From positions 62,001-126,000 of the forward strand of contig LUCM01007134.1 in the NCBI GenBank assembly GCA_008360955.1: 64,000 nucleotides of DNA. The letters are read 5' to 3'. Positions 206 to 63,786 of the stretch are shown here, piece by piece (position 1 is the stretch's first letter; each line of letters begins with the position of its first letter). Source of the stretch: Fasciolopsis buskii (Eukaryota; Platyhelminthes; Trematoda; Plagiorchiida; Fasciolidae). Below the pieces are notes generated by a model, which was not told the origin of the DNA, did no database searches, and saw nothing but the letters and a program-made list of their open reading frames with translations. The position numbers were made by a program, and so were the translations under genes.

Positions 206-217
206 GTTATTGTCGCT
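206..217 (+). CDS. Gene P exon P1, 12 nt (type 12a)
   Basis: Acceptor TTTTTTCCTAAAATTAG, donor GTAAGT. Core codons TAT TGT CGC (YCR). The last base T plus AT of P2 makes Tyr, as at the matching M35/M36 junction. Confidence 0.8.
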
Positions 218-26970: not shown

Positions 26971-26985
26971 TTCCGGGCTTTCCAA
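26971..26985 (-). CDS. Candidate distal gene M exon, 15 nt
   Basis: Acceptor AGTCCTTCGCAG, donor GTAAGT. Core GKPG. Joined to M56 the junction gives Phe, so FGKPG would continue the FGGK/FGKI-like tail style. The intron would be about 8.4 kb, far longer than any other in the chain, so intermediate exons may be missing. Confidence 0.55.
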
Positions 26986-31326: not shown

Positions 31327-32819
31327 GTAAGATTCAGGACAAAAAGTTTCCGTTTTTTGCTGTGTCCGGGACTTCCAGTGGTCTTCAGTGCATATCCTTA
31401 CTTGTCAAAGCACTCCGCTTTAGTGGCCATCCCGAATTTTCATTTTATTCCCTCTGGATCATAGGGCCACCAGCATTAAAAGACGCAACCACCCAAGTAC
31501 TTCCCACAAGATCCTACTAGTGTTGTTGACAATCTAGCACATAATGAAGTGCTGGCAATCGAGCTACCCAGCTTAGCGAACAAACTAGTGACTTGTTATG
31601 GAACGGCAGCTAAGTGGGTGAAAATTCTTTGAATTTGTATTTCATATATGCATATATATACAGTGTCTCAACAGAATCTGATTTATAACGTCAGGAGTGT
31701 GCATGGAAGTTGACAGAATGACCACAGCTGTGAATCGTTGATAATTCTTTTTCACTTGGGCTTAGTCAACATTAGGAACGTCTGCAAGAACAGATATAAG
31801 TTTTACTTGGTTTTTGTTGGGTGAACAAAACTGTCTCAGATTACATGTTTGTTTCTTTTGTGGACTTTTGAACGAACGGCTCCCATGCACATTCAAGAAG
31901 CTAAAGATTAGATTTTGTTCAGACAAGACAATTCGGAATGTGCAAGTATAAGAATGTTTGGACAAAAGAAAATCAGATAAGCACACCTGACGAGTGGCAG
32001 TAACCGCGAAACCAGTCGTGTGTTTCTGGGAATTTTGCGCACCTTTCCAGATACCTCTCATAATATACATCAATATTTGTGCCTACATACATATCATTTC
32101 AGATCAACTTAGAGTGCTCTGATGTATAAGGCTTTCGACTAACGTTCGTTTAGCTCCCCAATTCTCGAGGAGCCGAGTGCTAACAAAATCCCTTTATTTC
32201 CACAGAAATAAGTTGTGATAGAATGGGCAAATAAACCCTTCATTGACAGCTTCCAAGTTCAGATGATTCCTCACAGGGTCAGTACGATCCTTCGGATGAA
32301 GAAAATTTAGTGTAACCATCTAAAATACCCAGGGAACAAGAAAGCCAGCTTTTGTTAAATATGCCAAGCTTTATTGAATGAGATTAACTAATAGGTTTAA
32401 TTGTTAAAATTCCTTTTGCTCGTGAATCATATTCGTTAATGGCGACATGCTGGAATGCATTAAGAAAGAAAAAAGAAAGTTAGACAGTTTGTTTTTCTCT
32501 TAGTTCCTTTACTTGTTACTAACCTCTAGGGACAAAGCAAAACTGTGAAGCTGAACTGAAATCTGCTTGCTTGTGTACAGCACAAATTGTTTATCTTTTC
32601 AAAGTGATTCCATTGGTTGAACTTAAAGAATACGCTGTTTTTTGAATGCTAACTAACAAATTTCTACAACTGGTAAACAGCAAACAAAATCACTGTGCGG
32701 GTAAGTTTTTGCCCGGAAAATATCTCAGTTCTCTTAGTTTAATCAAATATAATTGTTGAGTAGCAGTATTAGGCTTATTATATTATAACAATACCGCACA
32801 AAGATTTGTAAACTTTTAG

Positions 32820-35359: not shown

Positions 35360-35374
35360 ATTTCTTTTCGTGAT
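35360..35374 (-). CDS. Gene M exon M56, 15 nt (tail)
   Basis: Acceptor TACCTCGAAAACAG, donor GTAAGT. Core HEKK after junction His. Ends in T, so the identity of the next exon decides whether translation stops. Confidence 0.82.
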
Positions 35375-41300: not shown

Positions 41301-44300
41301 ACGAAGACCAGTTCACCAAGGAGGGCATTTTAAGCCGTGGATTCAATTTGCCGAATTTGCATGAATACTGGATAAAGGCAAAGTTGCAGAGCTCAAAGCA
41401 GCAGAGGTGCGGGACCGAAGCAACTTTGATTGTATTCCCCATTTCAAATTTCTAAACACAAAATTCTGGATCGCATCTGTTCACAAATGTACAAATTCAT
41501 CACCCGACGAGAAATATTATGCCAGTCCCGATTGCGTATTTCGTACAACATCACCTCCGCTTCGTTTTCCGGTCCTCCTCAAGTCATCACAATTATCTTC
41601 GGGTGCCTCACCATTTGTTTGACAATTCACTCGCAGTAGGAGAGACAATCAGTTATTTCCGCCAAACACCACTGTTTGTTGTATGCAATGAATTGTATGA
41701 ACCAACTGATATCAAACATTCGGTTGGTTTCATGCTGCAAAGCAGCAGATCATGAATTTCACAGCGGAAATCGAACAAACTGAATGTGAAGTTCTGGGCG
41801 ACTCACATATTTATTCGTCTCGAAATCCTGTCGCGTGCAACAGAAGTATATGTGTTTATCGGTTTTGTAGATTACAGAGATATGATATGAGGAGTGATGA
41901 ATGTGGTTGTGACCCATGTTTGAAAATTTACACCAGTGATATGGAGGTTTACATCGTTAGCCTGAAGTACACCAAACTTCAGAAAGCAATAATGAATTAC
42001 CTAATGAGAATTGAAAATAAACAGCAGAGTCAGCCGAAAACGAAAACCAATGCGATTGCCCGGCAATATCGTCATCGTTTTCTTCAGCAAAGTGCACAGT
42101 ATTTTGTCAGACCGCAACGATGCTTATTCACCAGTATTGTCTTCGCAATACGGTCGAATAGCTGAGGGAGTCATTGGCACAAGTCTTTGAACGATGTAAT
42201 CTCCATATCTGCCCAAATTACAACTCACGAGAAGGCTAGCTACATGGAAAGTCCTTGATTCGGATGACCGAAGAGGAGCTGCGATTGAACACGTGTTTAA
42301 TGTGAGTGATAGTAAGACGAAAATGAGCGCTTTCTTTTGAACTATCGCTCCTAGATCACGTTGTTCTTCTCCCATTTGCCAGGTATTCCCAGAAGACGGT
42401 TTGAACAATAATGAAATAATGATAATTATCACGAGACCATTGTTATCGCGAAATACGAGGCCACGAAAACGAAGTAACCTAATCTGCTTTACCGAGACCT
42501 CACCAAATGAGTGGAATGCCAAATGCAATTGAGAACATTAAAGAAGACTCACCATATCCTTTCAGATCTGTCCCAACAAACGAGTATGGTTAGATTGTGA
42601 GCATATTTATGTGTTCTTGGTACGGTGCGAGAAATAGAGTGGCATTAGTTAGTGATTAGCAATTGCAAATTGATCCGATTTGTGCCAAGATTAGTATTTC
42701 TTCCGCCTATTGTCAAATTATTTCACTCGCATTGTCTATTCCCGGTTTGCTAAGTATGCAATGCGCTGTCACCTGGTGACATCTGCACAATGGAATGAGT
42801 AAATTTATCCGCATTCAATGCACAGTTTGCAGAAAAGTAATGAGGAAAGGCGTCGTGTGGGTAGTGCAGAATCCTCATTTTGCTAGTCGTAGTTCTGATT
42901 TAATAGATGTCCAATTCTGACTAAATCGATTAAACGAAATGATGGTAGATGTGTTCATGAAAAGTACAACTCTCGATGCGAAACTCACGTTTTCCGCCAA
43001 AGTCTATAATAGAAGTTTCGTTTGAGTAAGTGTTTGAGTGATAGATGAGCACGTTACTGTGTTTCGTGATTCGTTTCTCACCTTGCTTATCTCGCTGTTC
43101 TTTCATGCATGACAATGTGCCAACTCCCTGCGTTTTTCCTTTTTTGCACCAACCCGTTCTCAAACATTTTGACGTATTTTTTCTCAAGGTCCTTTTTGCC
43201 TTTTTCCCGTTTTTTCTCTTCTGGGTTTCCTTTTTTCAAATTTCTAATTTGCACTGCCTCTTAACTTTTTGTTGCAATACGTTCAAATTTTCTCCTTTTT
43301 TCCCATGTTCCTTGATATTGTTTAACCTTTTCTTTCTGTAATTCTAAGGCTTCCGTCTATTTTCCCTTTCTGTTTTCTTTTTCTCACTTGTATTTTACCA
43401 TTTGCTTTTTCTTTAACCATTTCTAATGTCAAATAAAACCATAATAATTTAAATTGTTTAAATATTTTCATGTTTTTTGCAAAATACTTACGGCAATTCT
43501 TCCCTGAAAATCCACAGATTCAGATGTTTATATTTAAGTGTTTATTGGTGTGTTCAGCTGATATTAAATTGAATTTATCTGGCCAGAATTCAAGGCATTA
43601 TGTCTGTCAAAGGCTGCCGTAATCATTGCCTAATACTGACTGAACAACTTTACAAAATCTGTGCACGGCTGACTTGATTTTGTCATGATCCTGAAAATAT
43701 CATCCTTTTTATCCGGACGCAAGTGGCACAGTTTATCTTACGTAGTGCAGCATTACATTTTGGGCCATAAGCCAGTATTTCACAATTCCGTGAATTCATT
43801 TATGCAAAAATGTTTTCTAGGTGAATTTTTGACTCATACTGAAGGAAATCATGCCAGTCTGCTTTAACAGGAAAGTTTAAAGTGTGCATCAAACTTACAG
43901 TCTACTTTGAAATCTGCGTTTGGAAATGCGTGGACAACATATGCATAGGAGAAGCGAAGTACAATGGATGGTTGGTTGCTGAGCCAAGAAATTGAGTAAT
44001 CGAGTGCCAATGTTAGCTTTGTCGAAGAAGTTTCCACTTCCACCTGACCGGTACGAAAGCCAGTTGACAAACCCACTCTGATGAAATAGACCGAGTTCTA
44101 ACGTCTTAAAAATGAAAAAGCGATTCAGGTGCGTAGTATCACGACAAGATGCAGTGGAATCAGTTTTTCTGTTTTTATGTTGTCGAAATCACCGTTAGCC
44201 AACCCAAAATTGTTGGTAATAATTATGGTTCACCAGTTTCTGGGCTGACTACCCACATGACGGGCGATTATTTTCAGTGAAGCCACGGTGATTTTGGACA

Positions 44301-47300
44301 CTAGTAAGTTCGTCTCAGTTCCCAAAGTGCTTTCACGATGTCATTGAATTGATATTCCCATCGGTCAAATTATGGTAAAGTCGTGAGCAAAACTCAATAA
44401 CTCCAGTTGACATTCAATATGTGTATTATTGCATCCTTTTGAAAATGAAGCTCATTTTCATTACCGAAGACGAACTTCCCAGAATTAGATCAAACAAGAG
44501 TGCCAAGAAACTGCAAGGTGACCTTGAGAATTATTGAATGTTTAGAATGAATTGTGATTTGTCATATCAAACTTACGTTTAAGAATTTCTGTTTACGAGA
44601 ATATGGTGAGAAAATGTCGATCAGACAAGTTTTCATTTGTGCGTGAAAGACCTCGATGCATTTTTGCGCGTGAAAAATAGTAGAATAATGCATTACATGG
44701 TTGTTGCTTATTGTCCAGCTTCTTCATTTATTTAATTTGACTGTTCGTAGATTTTCCATCTCCCATCCAGTTTGACTGCTAACATCTACTCGTCTCCAGC
44801 AATAGCCGAACAGCTTTTGTTAACAGTCCAGTATTCACAATACCAATAATTATGCAACTGTCAATAGATAACAACTGAAGTCATTGCAAAATTTCGATGG
44901 ATATTTATGTCCCTCTTTCTGTTTAGGCATTTCCATGCTTTCTGAAACAAATGGTTACCGAGAAGCCTGCAATAGTTGGTGTCATTCTCTCAGTATTTTT
45001 AATTGGCAAAATGTTTATATTACTCTCGAAAATGCAAACATTAGTCCTCAATATTTTAATGGGAGATCGTTGTCTTGTTTTTTTGCACGGAACGGCAATA
45101 ATGAAACAATTAACCGAGTGAATGCGATTCAGTAATTGTACGGGGATATGTTTTCCTTCAGACACCCCAACGCTGCGCCGTGAAAGTACCTTGAACATCT
45201 GCCGTCAGAAAATTTCCTGAGTCACAAGTCGTCATAGCTTTCCGTTGATTAGGATTTTTGAAGTTCTGTGCATAGGAGGTAAACAAATTTCTTGTCTCCA
45301 ACGCTAAATGTACTCTTTTTTGAAGGTTTCACTTACCCAACAGGGCAGCTTCTGTGGTAACAAAAGTAATTAGTAAAAGAATAGACGGTTATCTTCGGGC
45401 CTTTATATGTGCGTCAAGTGTATTGTGCGGTATTCACCAAATCTGTGATGAAATTTTTATCTTCCGCGTCATTTTATTGATTACTTCGAGGTCTATCATA
45501 TGCAAAAGTCATTTAGTGTTCACAGGATTCCTTCTAGCCAAATACCTAAACAAGCAAGCCGAAAACTAAAGTGTCACAGTTTACTGACCGGGACCAATGA
45601 CTCGCTCCGGTTAGGGAGACTTACTTTGGGCTTTGCCTGCAAGATTAAATTTTAATTATGATGGTGCTTAGTTAACAATGTTCTTCAAATGCGTGTAGTT
45701 AGTTCGAAACAAAATACCGTTTGCATTTTTTCACAGGCAAAAGATCAGTTTATCTACACAGCGCACATAAGCATTTAGCATACCCTAGATCTAATATTTG
45801 TACCTTGTCATCAAGTGGATTTCATAAAGACAATGTCAGATAAACCTCCCGGTCCCATCTTGCGGGGTGACATCGGTATTCGTAAATGGTTTCTTTAAAC
45901 TAAGATTAGTCAGTGCAGTTATACTGGCAAAGCAGCGCTTAGACTACGCAGAATTGGTGCCAACCAATACCGACCACTAGTGGTTTTCGGATATGGGACG
46001 ACACTCGATTTATTCAACTTTAAGGGTTGATGTGGTTTCCATTGCTTCACCCAACATTCATTATTCGGATAATATAATTTGCACCCGTATTGATAAAGCA
46101 AACTTCCAAATTTTGCATAGCCCCTAATACAATACATGCGGGCCTGGCAACAGATAGTGTCATATTCGCATTCAAGTCCGGCGTTGGCACTGAGAGAACA
46201 TGCTGTATTTCAGTAAGACAGCTAAACGTGCACTTGCATTTGACAAAGGTGTTCATTCTTTTACGAAATTCCCATTCTATTTCGTTTTCTTATTTACCAG
46301 AATCATTTGAAAATAGTTTTAATGAAACGACCCTATGAACATCTACTCACTTTGTTGATCAATGTCTGCAATAAATAAGTGTACATGATATTACGTAGAA
46401 ATTCAATCATTTGTTTTGTTCGATGAAAATGCAGCCAAAAATATTCATAAGAATTGCAGCGTTTAGTTGCATCAAAATTACAGACGGTCAATACTCACGG
46501 CCAATGAATCCTGCAATCGTGTCAGTGAAGAAATGTTATAATCAGAACTTAAAACATGCTATCTACTTTTACCATATATTGAGAAAAACTCGAACATTTT
46601 GAAATGTGCAAAAGAACTGGATTGCCGTTCCCAGCTGCAATTCGCAGTCTGTCGCTGAAAGCTTACGAGCTGACTTTGCCCCAAGTCATTCTCGAATAGT
46701 CAACAAAATGCGGCCAACGCAGGTCGTCAAAAGCTCAATTTGGAATAAAGTAGGACTGTGTCGTGTTGGCTATGTCCTGCAAAGAGGCACATCAGCGGAC
46801 AGCAAGGTATGCACTATTCGCAAATTCCATGAAATATTTTTCCTTTTGAAATTTCCTCAAGCACAAATTTGGTTTATATTTCCTGACAACTGCTGCTAAC
46901 TTCATACACGTGATTAGCACTGGAAGTGGTCTTTGACGTTTGGGGATGGTTGTGATCACACAATGTTTAACTCTCTTGTGCTGGTAACTGTTTTCAAAGC
47001 AGTTTGGAGTGGGAGATAATTCAGAGTACCAAACAATAATTGTTTCCTTAATGCCATATTTTAAAGCCGCCCTGTAATTAAAGCGATTATACTTACTTTG
47101 ATAGGAAGAAGCTGAAAAGTGCACAAGAGATTGCCAAGTCAATATATAAAAAAGTCGATTGTTTAGTGATAAAGGTGTTTCAGCAAAATCAAGTTACTAT
47201 TTGGGTGATATGAATGAAATCTTTCAACAAAATCCAACACTTGTTTTATCAAGAGTTCAAAGAACAAGTTCGTTTTTTCCAATAGAAAATTTGTTTTGAG

Positions 47301-53300: not shown

Positions 53301-56300
53301 TTTGACAGCTTTTCAACTAGTTTCCGGGTAAACTGAGAAAAATTCTTTGGAATGGACGACTGAATACTTGGAAGGACAGAAATCAAACACTAATTGGGCC
53401 GGAAAACTGTTCTGCGCAGAGTATGACAAACTCTACTTACTTTGACGATTCAGTTCTGTGTAACAGAAAAATCAGAATAGTATTGCTTTCATCAACCGAA
53501 ACAGAATTACTCGAAATTAGCCTGGATTACGAACTACTTGCGACGAAAAAACAGAGAGCTTATTTGATTCACAAACATTTTCACATAGAACTTATTCAGT
53601 AGTTTTCAGTTTTTTGCCAACATTTCATTTGTTAACTGGTTTGGAATTTCGATCCTGCTCACCAGATCGATCGTTTCTTAATGGACTGCGATAACTCAGT
53701 GCACTGACGATGTCTCCTCCAGTGGCGATGGAATGTTTGCGAACTGTGACAACTTCCGGTTTAATAACATTATGCCACCGGTATCCGGTGTAGTCGTCGT
53801 TTATTTCCCCTGTGACGTTACAACACAAATCAGTTGCACAGAAGCTAATAATGAGAGCTCACTAAACCTAAACAATCCAGATGTGTATTGCACTCTCCAT
53901 ATCGTTGTTTCGACTCGAAATTTTAGACATCGGCCTTGTTTAACTCCCCTTACTGTCGGTACCAAAATATCGTTAGAATTTAAAATTAAGGAGTGGAATT
54001 TAAACATATCCTAAGCTGATTAGATGATTGTATGAGCAGTGATTTATGAACTACTTAAAGTCTATCGTAAATACTAAAATAATTTCATAAAATACAAATA
54101 CAAGGAAGATTAAACAAATTTCCCAAAATATATGCGACTAATGCTTAACTCTAGGTGTAGTCAAAATTAGTCTTCTTTTAGACATCCCGGTAAAACATAA
54201 GTGAAGTAGGAAAGCAAACGCAAAATCATTCAAGAGCTTCAGGAACAAGTCGGTCTTGAAATGCTTGTAGCCAGTAGTCACAGCATTATAGAACTACTGA
54301 CCATGGGTGTCCGTTCATACAGGTGACAGTGTCATTCAGCACGCTCCGGTTGAAGGAAATGATATAGCATGACCAAATAAATGAATGATTTGATGTATAC
54401 TTATTCATCGCAGTTATGTAAAATCAATTAAACAAAATATTGCTAGAATGGAATGAAAGGTGCTGTAAAATCAGATTGAACTTACCGATGAGGAATCCTA
54501 AATGAGCGAGAAATGAAGATATTAGTAAACGCTTCATGCCAGTTAAAGACAAATCAGCCTTAAAAGACATGACATGAGACATTTTATACTGATATTTCAA
54601 AGGTTTCTTATCTGATCGACTGGACTTGCTATAGGTATTAGAGTTCCAATGAAGCTAATAACTCCTTGATATTTCCATCTGAAAACTTACTTCGGAATGC
54701 CAGTTCTAAATGCAAGAATCAAGAATCAGTTAAATAACCAATATTTTTCATTGACCGATTGCGAGCAAGCAATATATTAGGAATTTAACTAGAGTATCGA
54801 ATATTTGTCTCTGTTGATAGCACTGGATAAAGAGTTTTAATGAAGCAAGTAGGTATAAAACATAAACCAGGAATGAACTTAAGTGATTGGTCCTATCGTC
54901 AAAAACAACTAATATACCACATTCCGCTAGGTTTCTATACTTTTTACGATTCGTTTTATCGTTTATCTTAAGAAAACTCAAAGACATAACATTTCTGATG
55001 AGGATATCATTGTAAGTCATTGACAGAATATGAAATTACTGTGTTGGCAATTTGTGTCTCTTTTTGTACTTATTGAGCTTATGGTAAAATGGTGTCACAA
55101 AGGAATGTGCACAAAAGCGTCTCACCAAGTTGTTTTTCTAGAAAAATAATTCAATAGTCATTTTACTTTAAGTTTATTGTTTTCGCTTCAAAACCACGTG
55201 GCTGCATGTGGAAACTCAATATCACTGGCAGGGATTCTCTAGAAATCGCAAACGTGGATGGTGTTTGCTAGAGCTGTATTTCTCAAGCCTCTTATTAACG
55301 ATTTTCTTCAATGCCTATTGATAAGACCCGGAAACCACCAACTAGTTCACAAGTTTCATTATTTCTGAGTTACAGTTCATTAAAATGTGAAACGTTTAAA
55401 AAATCACCGTGCCCAGCCATCAATTTGATCAGCTGTTACAATTATCAGAAAACAATGAGCTTCGTTCTAAATTTTATTATTCTGGAATAAATAGCCAAGT
55501 TTTTGTTGATTAATCTGTTAAATTTTAGACAGTGAAACACACAAAAATCTGGCTGGTCGGTATATAATGGGAGTTATGAAAGTTTAACTTCGGAATAAAT
55601 GTTAATTCATAAGCATCCTGAATTAGCTAGATGAAATGTATGCCAACTTACTAAGTGCTGCCAAGTCTGCAAAATGGAGAAAACATTAAATATAGCAGCG
55701 TATATCGAAAACTTACGTAAGCTACACGTACTTCGAAGCTAATCATATCAAATTCTATTTGCAGCTCACAAACTGCACAATTCTGAATGCACCGGCAAAC
55801 TTTAAAATGCGGAATACATCAGGTAGATAATTTGCTAGTTTGGACGAACGCCACGGTTGGGTTGGTGTGCACAAGAACTACATCCGTGGATAAAGCTATC
55901 TTGGTATTAGGAAACTAGACTGCGTTTTTCTTCTAATACATGCGTCTTCATTATTTGGCTGAAAACGAAAAGGCCGACTTACATTGGAGGTAATCTGCAT
56001 AAAAACAGTTTGGTTATTTCGATGAATCCAACAGAACACTATCATAAATTACTTATAAGTAGTAATATTCTAATCTCAAAATCGTGGAAGCCTGCAAGGA
56101 ATAAGGGATTCAAAAACACGTTGACTTTTAACTTTCGGTTACATAGATGACAACCTTGCTCTGGATGACCGTATATTGCAAAGAAATGATATGTTTTGGC
56201 ATTTGTTTTTTTTTCGTTGAAACAGAGCTCAGTCATACAAACGCGATTCAGTGGTCGTATTGGCGATGTAAGTGAGCAAGTGAAGCCGATGGTATACACG

Positions 56301-59300
56301 CGATTACGTATTTGCTCGGGAAAATCAATGAAATAGTTGAGAATATAGCGGCAGATGGTTTCGTCAACTTTGACAGAACAGTAATTTGTTTTCATTTTTG
56401 CATATTGTTGGTTGACCTGTTAAAATGATTTGGCTTGCAACAACTTACACTTCCGCTTCAGTACTGTTGAAGAACAATAGAGCAATATAGGAAACTGTGA
56501 GCCATTTGCGTTATGTCTGCGAAATATTGACCGTAAAAGTGATCTTCAAAGCAAGTAACTTTAGAGAACTTGTCTGATTCACTTACGTCCGAATTGTTTT
56601 ACTGAAATAATAAGATGGTGCAATGCAAACAGGAAATCTGTCATTGATTTTCCGAATTTAATTGGCTCAGATTCGATAAAAGGGAAAATAAAAATGGTGA
56701 TCAAATTTGTTCTGTCCAATCTTTGTAAATGACTAATTGGAACGTACTTGCAATTTGCTCTGAAATAAAAACCGTTTTACAATTAAAAGTTTATTATGTG
56801 ATCAATTACTGGATAATGTTTCGGAATGTTGAAATACCAACAGCACAATTATCAGAAATCAAAACGTTTATTGTTTTGACAAACTTACCACGCCTGTGGA
56901 TTTCTGCACGAAAGAATTCATGAATATATTAGCTCTGGGGTTGCCACTTCGGATGCAAGGTTACACGAGTGTTTCTAACACATTTAACTATTGGGGTATC
57001 AGAAGTGTAACTAATGTCGGCCGTGACAGCTCTAATCTTTTATCTGTCTTGGCTCACCAAAATCTCGGAGAATTACAGCTTCATTATAAGGTTCCGGGAA
57101 CTTGTGTGAGCAGCCATATTGCTCGGGATATTCAAACGGTTTGAAAACTTTTAATGGGGGCTCCAGAATGTTCTGTACCTACGCACTACCATTATTCATG
57201 AAGAACTAAGTTTATTCAGCTGTTTTTTTTTAATTAGTCATCGAAGATGAGGAAAATCTTGGGGGATTTTTCATAATCAAACGCGACCATTTACCGGAAT
57301 AAGAAATCTTAACTTACCACGAATGAACGCTAAGAGAAATGCGAGAAATCGTTGAAAGATTGACAGTTATAAATGAGTTCGATACTTCGACGTCGATGTG
57401 AATGACAGAAACAGTCAAGGTGGAACGCACATCAGTCAGTGGAATTGAAGTTAAGTTCATCAATGGGGAAAATAGAACTCCTAAAAAGTTGGTTTCTATC
57501 AGTGCATCTTTAATAAAACAGATAATAACAAGCATGCAGTAACTGGTTTTACTTGGCCCCTGCAATGGTGACGCCTGTTGATATAGTACTGGAAACTCAC
57601 CTTGGAATTTGGCCTCTGAGATTTGGAAAATTTAATACGTTAAACAATGAATGACTTTTGGCAGTGAATACAAAACCTGTTTATCGATACCAGCCAAAAC
57701 ACTTTTGCAATCCTTGTCACACATTGGCATCAATGGACATTTATTTGTGTTCACAGCTGAGTAGAAATGAAGTATATCAGTGAGAACGTAAACACACTAC
57801 TGGCCTAAGAGTATTCTATTGAAACACTGGAATACTGCGTTACCATAACCGGCAACTTGTTTCGTTTGTACATCTGACTGCTTCTGCGTATTTTGCGAGT
57901 ACCGGTTTCATGCAGAATTACACATGTGAGACAAAGTCGGCTTCCACTGCTCAATTTGATCTGAAAGCGATTTACAAAATACACGGCGGGAAAACACTTA
58001 CTGTATTGATAAACTGGAATATCAAAGCGTAGTGAGAATGAGTTCAAGAGAGTGATCGCCATAATTTACTTGGTAAAGTTTACACCTCAATGGGTAGAAT
58101 AAACTTATGTTTTGTAGTTACTTACTTAGTTTTCTTGTGTCTATATAACGACCATAGGAGAATAAGTAAAACATTCAATTCAGTGATAAAATTTTCCTAG
58201 ATTCTTATGACTTTTGTCAGAATTAACTGGTGATCAAAATGGGTCAACTTATTTTCGTTCATCTAATATTTTGCAGTCAAGCAAAGTGACAATATTACTT
58301 ACAGGCCACGTATCCTGAGTGTAATAATTGAGACTTGTTAAACATTATCAGATGGCAGGCAAAATAATCCATTTGATTGATTGGAAACCAACGATAAAAA
58401 CGGAGCAGAATAATTTTGATTTGCGACTAACAAGTTAAATTGAACTGAACAATGGAAAATCATTTTTTTCTTTCCATTTTAGACTTCAAGCACATGTCTG
58501 AATGGGATCCAATCCCTGATGTAGTGTCTGTTACGAAAATTGATGTGGTTAATTTTTAATTAGAAAATATATGACCGCTTTTAGGAGTGGTTCACCCGCT
58601 TAAAGGAAGACTACGTGTGGCCTCCATCTCAGCATTCGTATTTCACGTGCAATCTATTAGCTAGGCCTAAAGTCGCCTAAATGGTCACATTGGCTCCTCT
58701 CTCGGTGACCATCAGGAAAGTTAAAACTACTTGGAATTCTCAAGTTGCTTTTATTGCATTCTGTTACAAAGTTTCCGTAGCGTGTCCGACTCTTTAAACC
58801 CAGTAATTTGCAGTAAAATGAATAGGTTTGTTTCATACATTCCCTAGCGGCAGGTAAGCGCAGTTTTCAGATATATGGTAGAAAAATATGCATTGAACTA
58901 GCGAGACAACTCTTGCTACAGTATTTACATCTACCTTACAGAGAATGAATCGTGGAAACACTGGACGACTGCTTCAATTTTGTCAGCACACGCCAGGAGT
59001 CTACCTGCAGTGCATCCGAACTGGGTTGACAACCAAGGACAAATGATCATATGTTAAACATCAGAGACAGTGGGCCATCTAAGGAGACTATAAATTATTC
59101 TGACATCGAATCACATGGTTTTTTGCAAGGGTGTAGTCCCTTTGGGATTAGACACGTAGTTGGACATCGGTCTAAATATTCCGAGGGCGTAGATTTTATT
59201 TCAGGGTCATTCGTCTCAGATTGACTATTATGTGGAAACCACATGGATGATGAGTTTTTAAGATATATTCCGTCAAATTTATATGCAATGATTTGCGAAC

Positions 59301-62300
59301 TACATTCACAAATTACAGTCCGAAGATGACAGATTTTCATAGCCGAAGTATCGGTACATCTCCCGAAGGAACAGAGTAGAAATAAATTGATTCAAAAGGC
59401 CAGTTTGCTTTGCGTGTTTAACACCGAGTTCAAACTAATCAACTCACTCTCATACTCAGCTCCTGAATAAGAAAAAGGAAGATGTTTTGTTCGGGGAGCA
59501 GGCACATATACGGGACAAACAAAATGAGTTTAATTCATTCGATTAAGTGGTCGAGGGTTATACGATACGAGGAATCCGTCTTCTCTAGAATGATTCGTTC
59601 ATTGATTTCCATCTACTCTTTTGTCCGTTACATTCAATGTGTATTCTGACTGCACATTACAGTGAGTTATGAAATACAAAAAACCACTTTTCCTAATTAT
59701 TTCAAAACATCCTAGAAAAGCTATACAAAATTGTATTGAAGTGACACCAACTTCGCATTAGATATGGGTTTAATTCAGATGATACCAGAAAACGCAACAT
59801 TATTTTCATTTCACAAGCTTGGCCAGCCCTCTGTGCACAGTGATGAGCAATAAACGAGTGACCAATCTCAATAAGCACTTACGGCGTTGTCGTTCTACAA
59901 TTTGGGGAAAATATAAAAATATCATTGGTGTACTAAGTGCAACAAGTTAATCAAACGCGAGCAGGCCTTTTTGCTCCCTATATGGCTTTTGTAAAAGTAA
60001 ACAAATCCGTCCAGATCTTAGTGGGATAAATTAGATGGAACCAATATTGAGCACATTTAGCTGGCTTAGACAGCAGAAAGTTATGCGCAAATTATTGATG
60101 AAACGTACTGTGCAATTCCAGGCCTGCGTTGTGGCAAAGAAAATTCAGTCGATTAGAGCGCGTTGGTTTTAAATCAACCAAATGATAGATATCACCATTT
60201 CTCGAGTAATAAAATTTTCGGAGAACTTACTCCTCAAGTATTCTGAATTGGAGTGAATGAAATCACAGATGAAAGTTTTTACGCATGATAAACTTGCAAG
60301 AATATTATCAAGGTAACTAATTCGATTAGCCGGAGAGGATGTCGAACGTAAGCTGCAAAATGATTTTTCTATTCTGCTAGTGTTCTAATTTCATTTCTCG
60401 GAGGAAGAAATGGTTCAGCAAAACTGTTTTTTTTCTTTTGTAAGTTGATTGCCAACAAAGGAAAGATTTCTGGAACGCCACCACCGCTTGGGTATCAGTG
60501 ATCGGAACATCGAGTGAACGAAAGAGACAGCTGCGTAGTGGTGGGTACTCCAGCTTATGCACAAAAATTGACAGACCGGCCAAAACGCAGCAAATTTGTC
60601 ACGCCCTAGAAAACCATAAAAACGAGGCCATTTATTTTCTCTTCTTTTTTCATTAGAGAAACGAGGTATCTGCTGATCTTATCAGAAATGGCCATTTCTC
60701 ACTATAACCACTTATTCATTTTCCTAACCCGTGTTTAGCCAACTATGATGGTTTCTAGTAAAGTAAATCAATTTCATGAATGCCTTTGCTGCTCGATGCG
60801 TTTACTTACACTATTTGTTTTCCATGTGCACAAAACGAAAATGTTTTCGAAGTTTGGGTATACTGAAAGGCTTTGGCTTGAATCATAACGTTGACGATTA
60901 TGCTCGATGAATAAATTATCCCTTTGTTTCCACTCACTCATAAATAAAAGAGACAGCTCAAAAGCAAACCAAATGATGACTAAAAGTCGCTCGAGAATTT
61001 GGGAGTCCACTTTCGAAATATTCACTTTGCTGACTTATTGATACGTTACGCGTTTCGGTCAGAGCATGCTAGATTGCAAAATTTCGTGAACAGTTAAAAC
61101 GTCACTCACTTCGGTAAATTGCAACTGCAATGGGGAAAAGTTAAGCGATATATTTTGAAAAACACTGGCACGGTAAGTGAAATTTACAATTGTTGTGGAA
61201 CAAGGAGAGCCAAAATAAATAGCCGAAAAGTCTACAAATTATTCGCCAATGAACGTGTCACTCACATTGAATTTGTTCTGTAGGGTACAGACATAAATGC
61301 ATGCCGTAGCGAGTAGGGTAGCAGTATGTTTTTGTAAATATGCTAATTATTTTCCGAACTCCTTAAAAATGATAGACTCATGGAAAATTGGTAAGCATTC
61401 GTTTAACCGTCTGTCTTTTCTACTTGGAGAAATGACAATCAGTTCAAAGCAGACTCAAGTCACGCACAAATACAACTGCTAAACAAGTGATCCTGAACTG
61501 CAGTGTTAAGACGACGACGTTTTGGTGGAATCTTTTCCACAGGAGCCACGCAAGATGGGGACATGATTGTCGTCCAAAGCAAAGATACTTTCGCGGGAAT
61601 AGTGTCCTCTGATTACATTAGTCTGAATGTACACGCTAGAGTAATTGGTAAACCGGGTTGTCAAGACTAAGTCTCAATGACCAAGTGCTTGGGTTCATTA
61701 AGGTACAAAACACAGAGAAAGAGATTCCTGTGATTGAAATCGCATCGCCCGGGATAGTTTAACAAGAGTTTCAGCGTTTAACTAACTGACAAGTTGGTCT
61801 TAGAACACAAGCGTCATTATGCACTAGGCGAACCACCAACATAAATAAACTATCTTTGGCAGAATTATGGTCAAAATTTTGTTTCCAACTTCAGAGTTCA
61901 AAGTAGCTCCTTATTCAGATGCAATTCAAACCAAAAAGAGGAAATTTATTAGTAACATACGTTTTTGGTGGCCTGAAAGAGACATTTTATTCCACAATGG
62001 AAAATCGATAATTCAATGCCTGATGTATCATTAAGAATCAGTTGTCCAAAAAGTGACCATACGAAAAGGTTTGGGAAATACTCAACAAAGATGACTCGAA
62101 ATCGTTTATACATCTCATTACTTTATTTGTTATAATCTGAACAGCATCATCCTACAGTAAACCCAAGGTTTTTCATGTGAATGAAATTTTATTTCCACAC
62201 CGCAATAAAGACGACATTCCGGAATGAAAAGCATCGGAATGGTTACTTTAATTTTTGTTCCATCTTCTTCATGAGTGCAAAATAGTACAACTCACGTCTT

Positions 62301-63786
62301 TTTATCAGTTCTGTAAATGTTCCGTTATGTCAACAAAATTAATACTAGGCAGATATTCGTCGATGCATCACACCATTTCAAACGTCTGGCAAAAAAAACC
62401 TTGAGGACTGTCCGCATCAAAGGATACTACTGAATTACTAGTACCATTTATAATTGATTTGAAAAGCACATTTGTATACGTGACCAATGCGACCAAAGAA
62501 GCAATGACAAATATTTTCCAAATTTACCTTCCAAATAGCCTAGAAAAATGTGTTTAGAATAGCAGGGATGCATTTAGATTTCTTTTTGTCAAGTTTATCA
62601 GTTTATTTAATAAACGTTTAAGTCACTGAGAAGACTAGATTGATAATCTGTGACATTTTTGCATTCGGCGGCAATCCTCACGAAATTGCCTAATTCCAGG
62701 AAAAGAGTATTAAAAAGAAATCCGAGTTTTGGTTTCCAATGATCAATAGTGTGTGGCCCACGAATTTTCCAATTATTGTTCATCGTCTCTTAATTTTGAA
62801 CGAAACTATGCAAAGGCAAAGTTAGCAGTATTATTGCGCTAACGGTGACACATGATTCTACATTTGGATGAACATTAATCGCACTTGTGCGGTCATTGTT
62901 CTATGCTTATTTACTTAAATGGATAGTAGAGACAAGATTGGGAAAACCTATTCAGCGAAACAAACAACAGAAAGATCTGACTGAGAGTAGAACCGTCATT
63001 AACTTACGTCTAAATAGGTTGTCTGTAAAGTAAAATTGGCAAACGGTGGATATCCGGTAACATTGTATTCACGATGGTTTTGCATGCAAATGATCACGAA
63101 AGGAATAAAATGTTTACTTACAAAGCTTGTTTTCTGCAATAAGATTGCGAGTGTGAAATTTAATCGTAAGTGAATCGCACATCTTATTCGAGCTTGCACA
63201 GGCAAGCTGAAACGCAAAGGTAAGAACACCGAACTACACGCAATCAATTTGCCTGAATAATTGAAATTTCACAGTGTAGGATTTGTCCTAGTAAAACTGA
63301 CCGACCGGGTCTGTTTTGTACAGTGCGTTCGGCGAAATACATTAGCAAAATCCTTCTTTCTTAATATTTGAGTATTCGGTGCCACTCACTTCGTTCTCGC
63401 AGTCCTAAAAGCAAGTTAAATTAAGGCATGTGCGAGTGCATTATTCAATTGCAAAATAGAGCGATACAATAAAGTATTGCATGAATAAATAGCAAACCTA
63501 TTATTAACTGGACATCTCAAAACGATATCACACGAGAGACGACATCTAGTTTGATTCCAAACTCAGTCACAGGCCACCAAAAAACGTACTTTACTGGATT
63601 GGAATAGTGGTAGATTTTATCTCAAGCCTTCCATGGAGAGACAGAAGTTAGTACGCAGAACCTTTTTTAGAGCATCCCAAGGAAATTCCTGATGAATCCT
63701 TGTTAGGTGGATTACCACTTATAAGCCATGACCATGAGGCCATACGGACAAGTACGGATATATAGTTGACTTACTTTGAAGGAATC
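35360..63786 (-). CDS. Gene M: minus-strand micro-exon gene, at least 56 exons encoding an 18-residue helical repeat
   Basis: I do not recognise the family. Reading the minus strand from the right edge gives 56 accepted exons: twenty-five of 12 nt, thirty of 15 nt and one of 48 nt (798 coding nt in about 28 kb). All are phase 1-1, with acceptors ending YAG and mostly GTRAGT donors. The joined frame is open throughout, while other phases hit stops at once (for example AACTGA in M6, TTTAG in M4). M1-M48 repeat the order 12a-15a-12b-15b, an 18-residue period with hydrophobic [FY][LIV], L and [YF] at fixed places and many K/R/Q: a predicted long basic amphipathic helix. M49-M56 form a different H/K/G/Y-rich tail. 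The order predicted three further exons with GTACGT donors (M11, M20, M34), which were then found. Both ends are uncertain: the 5' end is outside the window and the 3' end has several candidates. Product location and role unknown. Confidence 0.88.
36003..36017 (-). CDS. Gene M exon M55, 15 nt (tail)
   Basis: Acceptor ATTACTGATGATAG, donor GTGAGT. Core FGKI after junction Asp. Confidence 0.8.
36195..36385 (+). repeat. Degenerate trinucleotide tract with GAT core
   Basis: A clean (GAT)5 run near 36,305-36,323 sits in a longer stretch with three-base periodicity. One plus frame stays open for about 60 codons and would encode an Asp-rich peptide. I see no plausible acceptor for it, so a decayed repeat is preferred over an exon. 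Confidence 0.6.
37872..38065 (+). CDS. Candidate plus-strand terminal exon, 63 codons then stop
   Basis: Acceptor GAGTGGTCTACTCAG, phase 1. The frame begins QIFGRIHIVDEKEF, is rich in E/T/G and has three Cys near the end before TAG. It looks protein-like but I do not recognise it. It lies antisense within the 3' part of gene M. Possible partners are the small plus-strand exons at 31,303, 32,820 and 33,530. Confidence 0.3.
38546..38560 (-). CDS. Gene M exon M54, 15 nt (tail)
   Basis: Acceptor AATGAATTCAG, donor GTGAGA. Core YKEK after junction His. Confidence 0.8.
39393..39407 (-). CDS. Gene M exon M53, 15 nt (tail)
   Basis: Acceptor TTTCACCGACAG, donor GTGAGT. Core IKGK after junction His. 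Resembles M50 up to and including the donor context. Confidence 0.84.
39848..40266 (-). CDS. Alternative terminal exon: M52 read through its donor
   Basis: If the GTGAGC donor of M52 is not used, the frame stays open for 125 further codons to TAG at 39,848. This is part of the longest ORF in the window. The extension is His/Tyr/Pro/Asn-rich with scattered Cys and no obvious domain. It could be a retained-intron C terminus, or open by chance. Downstream exons M53-M56 fit the frame well, so splicing is the preferred reading. Confidence 0.35.
40219..40266 (-). CDS. Gene M exon M52, 48 nt (tail)
   Basis: Acceptor AATATTCTCACCCTAG, donor GTGAGC. Phase 1-1 like the others, with a 15-residue core DDSSQYEQHPYPRGY preceded by junction Glu. 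The only long exon in the chain. The same frame continues open for 125 more codons past the donor (see the separate entry). Confidence 0.75.
40267..42552. other. Gene M intron M51-M52
   Basis: About 2.3 kb. Carries a 137-codon plus ORF (41,752-42,165) without supporting splice signals or a recognised domain, a minus 60-nt exon-like match that was rejected, and the signal-like minus frame listed separately. Confidence 0.45.
42229..42528 (-). other. Open minus frame with signal-peptide-like segment, possible first exon
   Basis: The open frame contains a hydrophobic run (ALIFVLLSLTLNTCSIAA) after a Met-initiated basic stretch, and reaches a GTGAGT donor at 42,228. This looks like a secretory first exon. 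However, it ends in phase 0, not the phase 1 needed by the neighbouring micro-exons, and it sits inside the gene M chain. Unproven. Confidence 0.2.
42553..42567 (-). CDS. Gene M exon M51, 15 nt (tail)
   Basis: Acceptor TTTGTTGGGACAG, donor GTGAGT. Core LKGY after junction His. Confidence 0.84.
42989..43003 (-). CDS. Gene M exon M50, 15 nt (tail)
   Basis: Acceptor CTTCTATTATAG, donor GTGAGT. Core FGGK after junction His. Confidence 0.86.
43130..43432 (+). repeat. Long polypyrimidine (polypurine on minus) stretch
   Basis: About 300 nt dominated by T and C (CCTTTTTCCC, TTTTCTCTTC and similar) lies in the gene M intron between exons M49 and M50. The 98-codon plus ORF here is a composition artefact. 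Confidence 0.75.
43492..43503 (-). CDS. Gene M exon M49, 12 nt (start of tail)
   Basis: Acceptor TGTGGATTTTCAG, donor GTAAGT. Junction Trp then KNC, the only Cys I find in the gene M peptide. Confidence 0.87.
43899..43913 (-). CDS. Gene M exon M48, 15 nt
   Basis: Acceptor TTTCCAAACGCAG, donor GTAAGT. Core FKVD. The last base makes Trp with the next exon, as in gene P. Confidence 0.85.
44577..44588 (-). CDS. Gene M exon M47, 12 nt (12a)
   Basis: Acceptor TTCTCGTAAACAG, donor GTAAGT. Core ILK; P13 has FIK. Confidence 0.87.
45337..45351 (-). CDS. Gene M exon M46, 15 nt (15b)
   Basis: Acceptor TTTGTTACCACAG, donor GTAAGT. Core AALL; P12 has AVLK. Confidence 0.87.
45625..45636 (-). CDS. Gene M exon M45, 12 nt (12b)
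   Basis: Acceptor TTAATCTTGCAG, donor GTAAGT. Core KAQ; P11 has QDQ. Confidence 0.87.
46351..46365 (-). CDS. Gene M exon M44, 15 nt (15a)
   Basis: Acceptor ATTTATTGCAG, donor GTGAGT. Core IDQQ; P10 has LVNQ. Confidence 0.87.
46499..46510 (-). CDS. Gene M exon M43, 12 nt (12a)
   Basis: Acceptor CACGATTGCAG, donor GTGAGT. Core FIG; P9 has YHQ. Confidence 0.87.
47097..47111 (-). CDS. Gene M exon M42, 15 nt (15b)
   Basis: Acceptor GTGCACTTTTCAG, donor GTAAGT. Core SSYQ; P8 has VSFQ. Confidence 0.87.
47991..48002 (-). CDS. Gene M exon M41, 12 nt (12b)
   Basis: Acceptor TTTGAATAACAG, donor GTGAGT. Core NYE; the junction codons Gly before and Thr after match P7. Confidence 0.87.
48190..48204 (-). 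CDS. Gene M exon M40, 15 nt (15a)
   Basis: Acceptor CGATCCATTCACAG, donor GTAAGT. Core LERQ; P6 has LEKQ. An internal TAG acceptor would give a 9-nt exon; the paralogue supports 15. Confidence 0.87.
48710..48721 (-). CDS. Gene M exon M39, 12 nt (12a)
   Basis: Acceptor ACTTTAACTCCAG, donor GTGAGT. Core YTR; P5 has YIK. Confidence 0.87.
49053..49067 (-). CDS. Gene M exon M38, 15 nt (15b)
   Basis: Acceptor TGTTTTACTGCAG, donor GTGAGT. Core QLLQ; P4 has KLLQ. Confidence 0.88.
49234..49245 (-). CDS. Gene M exon M37, 12 nt (12b)
   Basis: Acceptor CCCTCTCCACAG, donor GTGAGT. Core LSY; P3 has QSY. Confidence 0.88.
50214..50228 (-). CDS. Gene M exon M36, 15 nt (15a)
   Basis: Acceptor TTTCTGCAATCCTAG, donor GTAAGT. 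Core LKKH; P2 has LKKQ. In codon phase 0 it reads ATT TAA. Confidence 0.88.
51053..51064 (-). CDS. Gene M exon M35, 12 nt (12a)
   Basis: Acceptor CATTGCGTTTTAG, donor GTGAGT. Core FLQ. Aligns with P1. Confidence 0.87.
51233..51247 (-). CDS. Gene M exon M34, 15 nt (15b)
   Basis: Acceptor TCCGTCATACAG, donor GTACGT. Core LAYK. Found by prediction from the 12/15 order. Confidence 0.84.
51441..51452 (-). CDS. Gene M exon M33, 12 nt (12b)
   Basis: Acceptor GTGCAATTTTAG, donor GTAAGT. Core HEQ. The intron from M32 is only about 100 nt. Confidence 0.87.
51556..51570 (-). CDS. Gene M exon M32, 15 nt (15a)
   Basis: Acceptor TATTGGCATTCAG, donor GTGAGT. Core INKH. Confidence 0.87.
51969..51980 (-). 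CDS. Gene M exon M31, 12 nt (12a)
   Basis: Acceptor TTTTATTTTTTAG, donor GTAAGT. Core YIR. Confidence 0.87.
52438..52452 (-). CDS. Gene M exon M30, 15 nt (15b)
   Basis: Acceptor GATTTCGTGCAG, donor GTAAGT. Core LRYE; starts AACTG. Confidence 0.87.
52692..52703 (-). CDS. Gene M exon M29, 12 nt (12b)
   Basis: Acceptor ATTAATTTTAG, donor GTAAGA. Core QQR. Confidence 0.86.
53441..53455 (-). CDS. Gene M exon M28, 15 nt (15a)
   Basis: Acceptor TTCTGTTACACAG, donor GTAAGT. Core LNRQ; starts AACTG. Confidence 0.87.
54486..54497 (-). CDS. Gene M exon M27, 12 nt (12a)
   Basis: Acceptor TCGCTCATTTAG, donor GTAAGT. Core FLI; shares GATTCCT with M1. Confidence 0.87.
54691..54705 (-). CDS. Gene M exon M26, 15 nt (15b)
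   Basis: Acceptor TTCTTGCATTTAG, donor GTAAGT. Core LAFR; starts AACTGGC like M34. Confidence 0.87.
55126..55137 (-). CDS. Gene M exon M25, 12 nt (12b)
   Basis: Acceptor ATTATTTTTCTAG, donor GTGAGA. Core KQL. Located after the order predicted a 12-nt exon here. Confidence 0.84.
55652..55666 (-). CDS. Gene M exon M24, 15 nt (15a)
   Basis: Acceptor TCTCCATTTTGCAG, donor GTAAGT. Core LAAL. An internal acceptor would give a 6-nt exon instead; the 15-nt form fits the order. Confidence 0.85.
55983..55994 (-). CDS. Gene M exon M23, 12 nt (12a)
   Basis: Acceptor TGTTTTTATGCAG, donor GTAAGT. Core YLQ. Confidence 0.87.
56449..56463 (-). CDS. Gene M exon M22, 15 nt
   Basis: Acceptor GTTCTTCAACAG, donor GTAAGT. 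Core LKRK. Follows M21 directly with no 12-nt exon between them, so the order slips here, or exons are missed on both sides. Confidence 0.85.
56587..56601 (-). CDS. Gene M exon M21, 15 nt (15b)
   Basis: Acceptor TCTTATTATTTCAG, donor GTAAGT. Core KQFG. In codon phase 0 it begins with TAA. Confidence 0.87.
56748..56759 (-). CDS. Gene M exon M20, 12 nt (12b)
   Basis: Acceptor TTTTTATTTCAG, donor GTACGT. Core QIA. Found by prediction from the 12/15 order. Confidence 0.83.
56889..56903 (-). CDS. Gene M exon M19, 15 nt (15a)
   Basis: Acceptor ATTCTTTCGTGCAG, donor GTAAGT. Core IHRR. Lies inside unrelated plus-strand ORFs, which are shadows. Confidence 0.86.
57318..57329 (-). CDS. Gene M exon M18, 12 nt (12a)
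   Basis: Acceptor GCATTTCTCTTAG, donor GTAAGT. Core FIR. Confidence 0.87.
57601..57615 (-). CDS. Gene M exon M17, 15 nt (15b)
   Basis: Acceptor TTTCCAAATCTCAG, donor GTGAGT. Core AKFQ. Confidence 0.87.
58002..58013 (-). CDS. Gene M exon M16, 12 nt (12b)
   Basis: Acceptor TTTGATATTCCAG, donor GTAAGT. Core YQY. Confidence 0.87.
58126..58140 (-). CDS. Gene M exon M15, 15 nt (15a)
   Basis: Acceptor GTCGTTATATAG, donor GTAAGT. Core TRKL, atypical because the Leu comes last. Confidence 0.83.
   Translation of the reverse strand, partial: TQEN
58303..58314 (-). CDS. Gene M exon M14, 12 nt (12a)
   Basis: Acceptor TATTACACTCAG, donor GTAAGT. Core YVA. Confidence 0.87.
59448..59462 (-). CDS. Gene M exon M13, 15 nt (15b)
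   Basis: Acceptor TTCTTATTCAG, donor GTGAGT. Core AEYE. Confidence 0.87.
59883..59894 (-). CDS. Gene M exon M12, 12 nt (12b)
   Basis: Acceptor CCAAATTGTAG, donor GTAAGT. Core RQR. Confidence 0.86.
60109..60123 (-). CDS. Gene M exon M11, 15 nt (15a)
   Basis: Acceptor CCACAACGCAG, donor GTACGT. Core LELH. Found only because the 12/15 order predicted a 15-nt exon between M10 and M12. Confidence 0.83.
60231..60242 (-). CDS. Gene M exon M10, 12 nt (12a)
   Basis: Acceptor CTCCAATTCAG, donor GTAAGT. Core YLR. Confidence 0.87.
61110..61124 (-). CDS. Gene M exon M9, 15 nt (15b)
   Basis: Acceptor CCCCATTGCAG, donor GTGAGT. Core AIYR. Confidence 0.87.
61266..61277 (-). CDS. Gene M exon M8, 12 nt (12b)
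   Basis: Acceptor GTACCCTACAG, donor GTGAGT. Core QIQ. Confidence 0.85.
61961..61972 (-). CDS. Gene M exon M7, 12 nt (12b)
   Basis: Acceptor GTCTCTTTCAG, donor GTATGT. Core HQK. The repeat order then expects 15b, 12a and 15a before M8; I could not find them in 61,278-61,960. Confidence 0.8.
62296..62310 (-). CDS. Gene M exon M6, 15 nt (15a)
   Basis: Acceptor ACATTTACAG, donor GTGAGT. Core LIKR; starts AACTG. In codon phase 0 it reads AAC TGA, so the frame is fixed. Confidence 0.87.
62528..62539 (-). CDS. Gene M exon M5, 12 nt (12a)
   Basis: Acceptor CATTTTTCTAG, weaker donor GTAAAT. Core YLE, exactly where the repeat order calls for a 12a exon. Confidence 0.8.
63008..63022 (-). CDS. Gene M exon M4, 15 nt (15b)
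   Basis: Acceptor TTTTACTTTACAG, donor GTAAGT. Core NLFR. A one-base-leading frame shift would read TAG, which supports the chosen phase. Confidence 0.87.
63122..63133 (-). CDS. Gene M exon M3, 12 nt (12b)
   Basis: Acceptor CTTATTGCAG, donor GTAAGT. Core NKL. Confidence 0.87.
63390..63404 (-). CDS. Gene M exon M2, 15 nt (15a)
   Basis: Acceptor GCTTTTAG, donor GTGAGT. Core LRER; starts GACTG. Confidence 0.87.
63775..63786 (-). CDS. Gene M exon M1, 12 nt (12a)
   Basis: Minus: TACCTTTTCAG, GATTCCTTCAAA, GTAAGT. Core FLQ. First exon visible; earlier exons must lie beyond 64,000. Confidence 0.87.

Follow-up and report, generated by a model that had tools for sequence, protein, structure and literature searches.

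In schistosome micro-exon genes (MEGs), most of the coding sequence lies in short symmetric exons of 6-36 bp, most commonly 15 bp, separated by long introns (PMC10526429, PMC5825161), and S. mansoni MEGs are described as having 10 to 20 micro-exons per gene (PMC10526429). Their products are reported to be secreted or membrane-anchored, with a signal peptide in MEG-26, and MEG-26.2 and 26.4 of S. mansoni are internally duplicated, their exon lengths recurring in the same pattern (PMC10526429, PMC5825161). Alternative splicing is proposed to make variant proteins from these genes, one group of which encodes amphipathic helices, several of them cationic, with a proposed action on host cell membranes (PMC5825161). 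In the aphid Melanaphis sacchari, megacycle comprises 118 exons over ~100 kb and encodes 2092 residues, reportedly with no obvious CYC motif (PMC9168663).

Genes of tandem symmetric micro-exons are already known, from schistosomes and aphids, and the first-pass annotation's comparison with flatworm MEGs and aphid bicycle genes agrees with that literature. Tandemly repeated exons encoding a regular 81-base repeat were reportedly described by Davis in 1988 for S. mansoni 10.3. Compared by description, 10.3 (MEG-4) is like the present locus in having tandem exons that encode a regular repeat, and differs in the unit.

The minus-strand gene described here shares with the MEGs a coding region made mostly of symmetric exons within 6-36 bp, and with the amphipathic-helix group of MEG-26 long introns and a predicted cationic amphipathic helix. 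It differs from the MEGs in its estimated ~160 micro-exons, against 10 to 20 of mixed length in S. mansoni, and in a 12-15-12-15 nt cycle that encodes an 18-residue unit repeated ~33 times. General searches of Pfam and a protein collection found no relative, and the comparison with the numbered MEG families is by description; the Pfam family TES had no match in the genome, where its control was equally silent. With megacycle it shares more than 100 micro-exons and one giant secreted repeat protein (secretion is predicted here), and its internal exons begin at codon position 2, as in the bicycle and megacycle genes. Unlike bicycle genes proper, it lacks CYC motifs (one Cys in 659 residues), whereas megacycle has longer exons on average and a repeat of about two CYC motifs. 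The available part of the megacycle report mentions no fixed alternation of two lengths (PMC9168663), and beyond the general searches the comparison with aphid proteins is likewise by description.

As far as we have seen, what appears to be new is the two-length cycle, the mean exon of 13.5 nt, the coincidence of exon cycle and protein repeat, and their conservation in a paralogue; no description of a 12/15 exon alternation was recognised in the open-licence literature searched. So many exons in strict alternation had also been called unusual; given the 118 exons of megacycle (PMC9168663), their number by itself has a precedent. Taken whole, our best explanation, to which we give a probability of about 0.6, is a small family of giant micro-exon genes encoding secreted basic helical proteins, with exons recognised by intron definition and products that would bind anionic surfaces.

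The minus-strand micro-exon array

The window is the whole 64,000-nucleotide stretch that was analysed (C4213:62001-126000), and its positions are those of contig C4213 minus 62,000. Exons of 3-60 nt were scanned strand-wide with an acceptor YAG preceded by at least 6/12 pyrimidines and a donor GTRAGT. By this criterion the window's minus strand held a 12-nt exon 21 times and a 15-nt exon 27 times, about 30 times the mean of the other 56 lengths, which gave 42 exons in total and none more than three. In 100 dinucleotide shuffles, the two lengths together averaged 0.81 (maximum 3), and no single length exceeded 4. All but two of these 48 exons (20 of 12 nt and 26 of 15 nt) lie inside one array; the others are at 26971 and 7242.

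The features assigned to the minus-strand gene within the window are the following:

43492..63786, minus strand: 3' portion of the array, with 50 micro-exons that each measure 12 or 15 nt and mostly follow the order 12-15-12-15, intron phase 1
61464..61478, minus strand: weakest array exon in the window, 15 nt, donor GTGACT and poor acceptor, uncertain; the cycle demands a 15-mer here
56449..56463, minus strand: extra 15-nt exon breaking the alternation (15-15); aligns with an out-of-cycle 15-mer of the plus-strand gene at contig 39,664
within 35360..43003, minus strand: ten C-terminal micro-exons, the first five at 42989, 42553, 40910, 39956 and 39393, the last five at 38546, 37518 (or 18 nt), 36816, 36003 and 35360
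34712-34726 and 33944-33958, minus strand: two more candidate 15-nt exons, tentative
31762..31781, minus strand: candidate terminal exon, tentative, with a strong acceptor, five codons and stop TAA

The proposed phase reads from the third base of each exon, with intron phase 1 on both sides. Among the 46 array exons found by signals alone, none contained a stop in this phase, whereas phase 0 gave stops in nine and phase 2 in four, and the counts were equal for all 48. The accepted list comprises 60 exons from 63,786 to 35,360, namely these 46 plus 14 with weaker sites, and all 60 exons and the 59 junction codons are free of stops. The 14 weaker exons were chosen partly by phase and alternation (61464 most of all), so that only the 46 constitute an independent test. 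A further candidate at 54282 was discarded, as it contains a stop. Donors read GTRAGT in 47 of the accepted exons, and every acceptor is CAG or TAG.

Along the first 51 accepted exons, 49 of the 50 steps alternate between 12 and 15 nt, a value that 100,000 permutations did not approach (at most 42); the 42 signal-only exons of that stretch alternate in 35/41 steps. The sole break is the 15-15 step at 56587/56449. Downstream of ~43 kb the alternation stops and the exons are mostly 15 nt. The ten C-terminal exons (eight 15-mers and two 12-mers, five with weaker sites) encode peptides rich in His, Lys, Gly and Tyr, of the type HFGGK and YIKGK. The 3' end of the gene is less clear than its start: an AATAAA/ATTAAA signal lies 312 nt beyond the candidate terminal exon at 31762..31781, which is one of seven listed candidates.

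These results bear out most of what the first-pass annotation had proposed for this strand. The recurring 12- and 15-nt exons are real, with 21 and 27 occurrences against at most three at any other length, as are their shared phase 1-1, their single open frame and the stops in the other phases. The proposed minimum of 56 exons holds as a lower bound, with 60 in the window, but underestimates the whole gene. The array does occupy 35360..63786, yet continues ~48 kb past the window end, and the strict alternation described earlier is confined to the part upstream of ~43 kb.

The window holds only the 3' part of this gene. When the flanks were examined (contig 1-196,000 of 385,188), the array was found to extend upstream to contig 173.7 kb, and a candidate start lies 51 kb past the window end. 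On the minus strand between contig 95 and 174 kb, signals alone identified 54 12-nt and 60 15-nt exons, and only 37 spread over the 56 remaining lengths, while control stretches (minus strand 0-95 and 174-196 kb, plus strand 81-196 kb) contained 0 to 2 of each. None of these 114 exons had a stop in the proposed phase, compared with 22 and 19 in the others. Alternation holds in 81/113 steps of this strict set, because weaker exons are absent from it. A cyclic four-state model (A12, A15, B12, B15), whose profiles were trained iteratively on the minus gene itself, recovered 147 exons, the first at 173.7 and the last at 105.5 kb; their mean length is 13.5 nt, three have poor sites and 138/146 steps are in cycle. 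The model scored 2060 on the array, compared with 16 on the opposite strand and no more than 13 in five block shuffles. Once three longer exons (21, 21 and 18 nt) after the candidate start are added, together with ten to twelve exons at the C-terminal end, the whole gene would have about 160 micro-exons over some 80 kb. The putative first exon is as follows:

contig 177,307-177,367, minus strand: candidate signal-peptide start exon, MNLLRFLPWGIALVLLVAVY, then the first base of a codon that the next exon completes, with a strong donor

A TATA box lies 46 nt before the ATG of this exon, and the encoded protein is probably secreted by way of it. Hydrophobicity alone is poor support for the assignment: the exon scores 2.80, against top values of 2.72 and 2.81 in controls of ~95 and ~115 kb, and one signal-peptide-like exon inside the gene scores higher (2.98).

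Paralogous genes with the same exon order

A second giant micro-exon gene, missing from the first-pass annotation, lies on the plus strand, convergent with the minus gene. It occupies positions 206-18484 of the window and contig 782-80484 overall, its array extending left to at least contig 782. Its features in the window are the following:

within 206..12165, plus strand: 3' array with exons of 12 or 15 nt at 206, 2098, 3730, 3923, 4463, 4587, 4786, 7063, 8269, 8385, 9396, 9664 and 10702, followed by 11183 (18 nt) and 12154 (12 nt)
13224..18484, plus strand: candidate C-terminal exons of 15 nt, tentative, at 13224, 17009, 17334, 17630 and 18470
15436-15456, plus strand: candidate C-terminal exon of 21 nt, tentative

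The exons at 9664, 11183 and 12154 were chosen with homology to the minus gene in view, and an 18-nt exon at 12020-12037 was left out of the model. On signals alone, the plus strand between contig 0 and 81 kb contained 28 exons of 12 nt, 23 of 15 nt and 47 at other lengths; none of the 51 exons of 12 or 15 nt had a stop in the proposed phase, compared with 13 and 10 in the others. Between contig 41 and 60 kb, to the left of the window, exons of this gene are sparse and introns long, which may reflect insertions or partial decay.

From 51,053 on, the minus gene is homologous exon by exon to the plus array. The 13 plus exons from 206 to 10,702, one of which (9664) had been chosen with the homology in view, match the minus exons from 51,053 to 44,577 in a single register with a score of 116, the runner-up of 13 registers scoring 47; this value was not reached in 20,000 within-class permutations (maximum 107). 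Their peptides are identical to the minus counterparts at 25 of 58 residues, and BLASTP gave an E value of 8e-13. In the plus model of 77 exons, which was built with profiles of the minus gene, every exon aligns in order with a minus exon, with 138/345 residues identical and a score of 656, compared with at most 489 in 100 unit-order shuffles. Identity is lowest at the third codon position (166 of 345, against 202 and 215 at the first and second), while flanking intron sequence outside the splice consensus is identical at chance level (2005/7161, 28%).

The minus model contains eight out-of-cycle steps and the plus model six, and these are homologous at two places: a 12-12 step at QQRR-EHKA and KKQK-QYKA, and the surroundings of the out-of-cycle 15-mers LLKRK and SLKRT. 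The remaining steps are unshared or fall outside the aligned part. This agreement in exon order, lengths and irregular steps, with introns unconserved, supports the earlier proposal of a single gene of symmetric micro-exons. Between the two genes, homologous exons reach 2.0 score units per residue (116/58), compared with 0.6 to 0.7 for units within a gene, indicating that the array was probably built before the minus and plus genes duplicated.

The whole genome (703 Mb) was searched with one pattern for the B15 exon and one for the A12 exon. The first gave ten matches (five on C4213, four on C5063 and one on C3109; two for the reversed control), and the second gave five (two on C4213, two on C5063 and one on C3055; one for the control). 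On the minus strand of C5063, at 455-475 kb, a third locus was found, where 12-nt exons number 14 and 15-nt exons 11, against 8 for all other lengths. None of its 25 exons of 12 or 15 nt had a stop in the proposed phase, against six and three in the others, and the cyclic model gave 34 exons with 32/33 steps in cycle. Further candidate exons reach 484 kb; no homologue of the candidate start exon was found within 30 kb. Scattered matches on the same strand span ~322-484 kb of C5063, and a single gene there would exceed 160 kb. The family thus appears to include at least three loci on two contigs, as counted with patterns that catch few exons per gene.

The 18-residue unit and the predicted protein

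The repeat unit is four exons, 12-15-12-15, which amount to 54 nt and 18 residues. This follows from the similarity of exon peptides, which among the 27 exons from 55,983 to 43,492 was positive at lags 4, 8 and 12 and negative at lags 2, 6 and 10, and from the 18/36-residue period of hydrophobicity, with an autocorrelation of 0.40 at both distances in the same stretch and of 0.41 at 18 and 0.31 at 36 residues in the full chain. The negative lags rule out a 9-residue unit. Recent tandem duplication of units was also ruled out, as direct repeats in the array all stay below 40 nt and the values at lags 4, 8 and 12 are similar.

The consensus of the 29 complete units of the minus gene is RYIRELERQKRQQLAAYE. 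Unit position 2 is Tyr or Phe in all 29, positions 3, 6 and 17 are hydrophobic in 27, 28 and 29, respectively, and 24 units have Lys or Arg at position 10. Hydrophobic residues occupy positions 2, 3, 6 and 17 in 14, 12, 14 and 14 of the 15 plus-gene units, and in 8, 8, 7 and 7 of the 8 units from the third locus. The 659-residue model of the minus gene contains only 2 Pro, 5 Gly and 1 Cys, with a net charge of +124, and a 48-residue C-terminal tail is composed of 25% Lys, 17% His, 15% Gly and 12.5% Tyr.

In the product, ~33 repeats probably form an amphipathic alpha helix that is very long and strongly basic, followed by the His/Lys/Gly/Tyr-rich tail. A helix is suggested by the scarcity of Pro and Gly together with the i+3/i+4 hydrophobic pattern (0.14 and 0.12 in the full chain). 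Formal helix tests were mixed. In a 224-residue chain, one residue shuffle in 2000 reached the signal at 94-106 degrees. For the mean unit, the hydrophobic moment was not significant (1847 of 20,000 position shuffles reached it), and the four hydrophobic positions fall within 100 degrees on the helical wheel, as would 5.9% of choices by chance. Full-chain periodograms peak at 80 degrees for the minus gene and 160 degrees for the plus gene, which are harmonics of the repeat and not 100 degrees; the 100-degree region leads only in stretches of 121 and 224 residues.

Neither the 272-residue joined part (E up to 1) nor the 659-residue model (E up to 0.1) matched Pfam, and the former had no match among PDB sequences. 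In a large protein collection, no relative with E up to 1 was found for either query among candidates of 0.55 to 1.75 times its length that had exact words in common with it (455 scored for the part and the 8000 best for the model). None of the reading frames listed for the window reaches 170 codons, and the 10 of 117 frames of at least 75 codons that were compared with Pfam gave sub-threshold matches only. The gene had been described as invisible in a long-ORF view, and long-frame, domain and database searches indeed reveal nothing of it.

Other features of the window were recorded. Candidate longer exons number 30 and 15 on its two strands. A 168-residue open frame rich in His, Tyr and Gln (39851-40354, minus strand) runs over the exon at 39956 in another frame; it has the strongest codon-position asymmetry among frames of at least 70 codons, and no relative was found among the four candidates scored. 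Scanned for tRNAs and for Rfam families at their gathering scores, the window gave no match. A tRNA-like stretch at 15885-15960 on the plus strand, ggtcgcgggttcgaatcc, which resembles the head of a tRNA-derived SINE, lies in the window, where ARAGORN and Rfam had no match. Elsewhere in the genome, a COX1 fragment with two broken frames (C753:1046-1702, at one end of a 173-kb contig) is probably a nuclear copy of mitochondrial DNA. It includes FIWWWPLITG when TGA is read as Trp and AGA/AGG as Ser, a spelling of the kind seen in parasitic flatworms; the fragment's Pfam scores were alike under codes 4, 5 and 9. The organism is likely to be a flatworm, and possibly a trematode.

Alternative readings, splicing and function

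Acceptor and GTRAGT motifs that happen to stand 12 or 15 nt apart and were picked by eye could in principle imitate such an array, and isolated candidates of these lengths do occur at 7242 and 26971, just as 14 of the 60 accepted exons have weaker sites. Such decoys would not produce peaks ~30 times above other lengths, 114 exons without a stop, near-zero counts on the opposite strand and in shuffles, or conservation in a paralogue; as far as sequence allows, this reading is refuted, and its probability is negligible. The exons could instead be the remains of a once-functional family, now dead and unexpressed and still recognisable through its recency. Sparse exons in part of the plus gene fit this idea, but between the two genes the introns are no more alike than expected by chance, whereas the exons have retained 40% identical residues, an open frame and near-consensus sites, and the third codon position varies most between the two genes, so that we regard a dead family as improbable. 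Membership in the aphid bicycle/megacycle family would account for the number of exons, over 100, the tandem internal repeats, the exon starts at codon position 2 and the candidate secretion signal, all of which have counterparts in that family (PMC9168663). It is very improbable given a single Cys in 659 residues and hence no CYC motifs (megacycle itself has no obvious one), a repeat of 18 residues instead of about two CYC motifs, and exons averaging 13.5 nt against ~53, a figure obtained by division from the published numbers for megacycle (PMC9168663). The flatworm-like look of the COX1 fragment also speaks against it.

The main rival concerns function. Tanned secretions of flatworms and other invertebrates contain cross-linked proteins, and the product could be a secreted structural or adhesive protein, a coiled coil or rod in which Tyr/Lys-rich repeats and the tail become cross-linked. 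The aromatic residues conserved at unit positions 2 and 17 and the 48-residue tail rich in Lys, His, Gly and Tyr favour this, while the searches of Pfam, PDB and the protein collection found no relative, and the Pfam eggshell family PF08034 had no match in the genome, where its positive control was silent as well. We consider a cross-linked structural protein a real though unlikely possibility.

The preferred explanation, a secreted basic helix from a family of giant micro-exon genes, starts from exon lengths, phase and order, the four-exon unit and the conservation of exons but not introns between paralogues, which are established from the sequence; secretion, the helix and the binding of an anionic partner are inferred, and exon skipping in this gene of ~160 exons is a possibility. 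The exons would be recognised by intron definition through near-consensus splice sites, since 12 nt gives exonic enhancers little room. Near the exons, the branch-point-like motif TTAAC is enriched (13 against 3.1 expected), while TGC and GCATG showed no enrichment near minus-gene exons. The hexamer ATCGAC, one of 4096, occurs six times within 60 nt upstream of minus-gene exons, against 0.1 expected from intron interiors.

With phase 1-1 in every exon, the frame would survive the skipping of any exon. An ideal alpha helix turns 100 degrees per residue; the 18-residue unit corresponds to exactly five helical turns and the 12+15 half-unit to 9 residues. Skipping would rotate the downstream face by 40 degrees for a 12-mer, 140 for a 15-mer, 180 for a 12-15 pair and 0 for an entire unit, and alternative splicing could give a set of helices with different faces. 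Such a basic rod might bind extracellular anionic surfaces (membranes, nucleic acid or mucins), a role also proposed for the amphipathic micro-exon proteins of schistosomes. A further, rather doubtful idea is that exon length acts as a code for helix geometry, in which exons of four and five residues and half-units of nine would let skipping rotate or preserve the active face, yielding combinatorial helices, with the cycle fixed before the at least three loci duplicated.

Micro-exons are considered hard for the splicing machinery (PMC4317164), and in splicing about 160 consecutive exons, mostly of 12 or 15 nt, this gene would put their recognition to a severe test in nature. Exon lengths agree with the protein repeat (four exons, 54 nt, 18 residues) in two paralogues with randomised introns, and this ties gene structure directly to protein geometry. 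Because long-frame, domain and database searches miss these genes, similar ones may be overlooked elsewhere. Should the organism be parasitic, proteins like these, secreted and variable, would be candidates for contact with its host.
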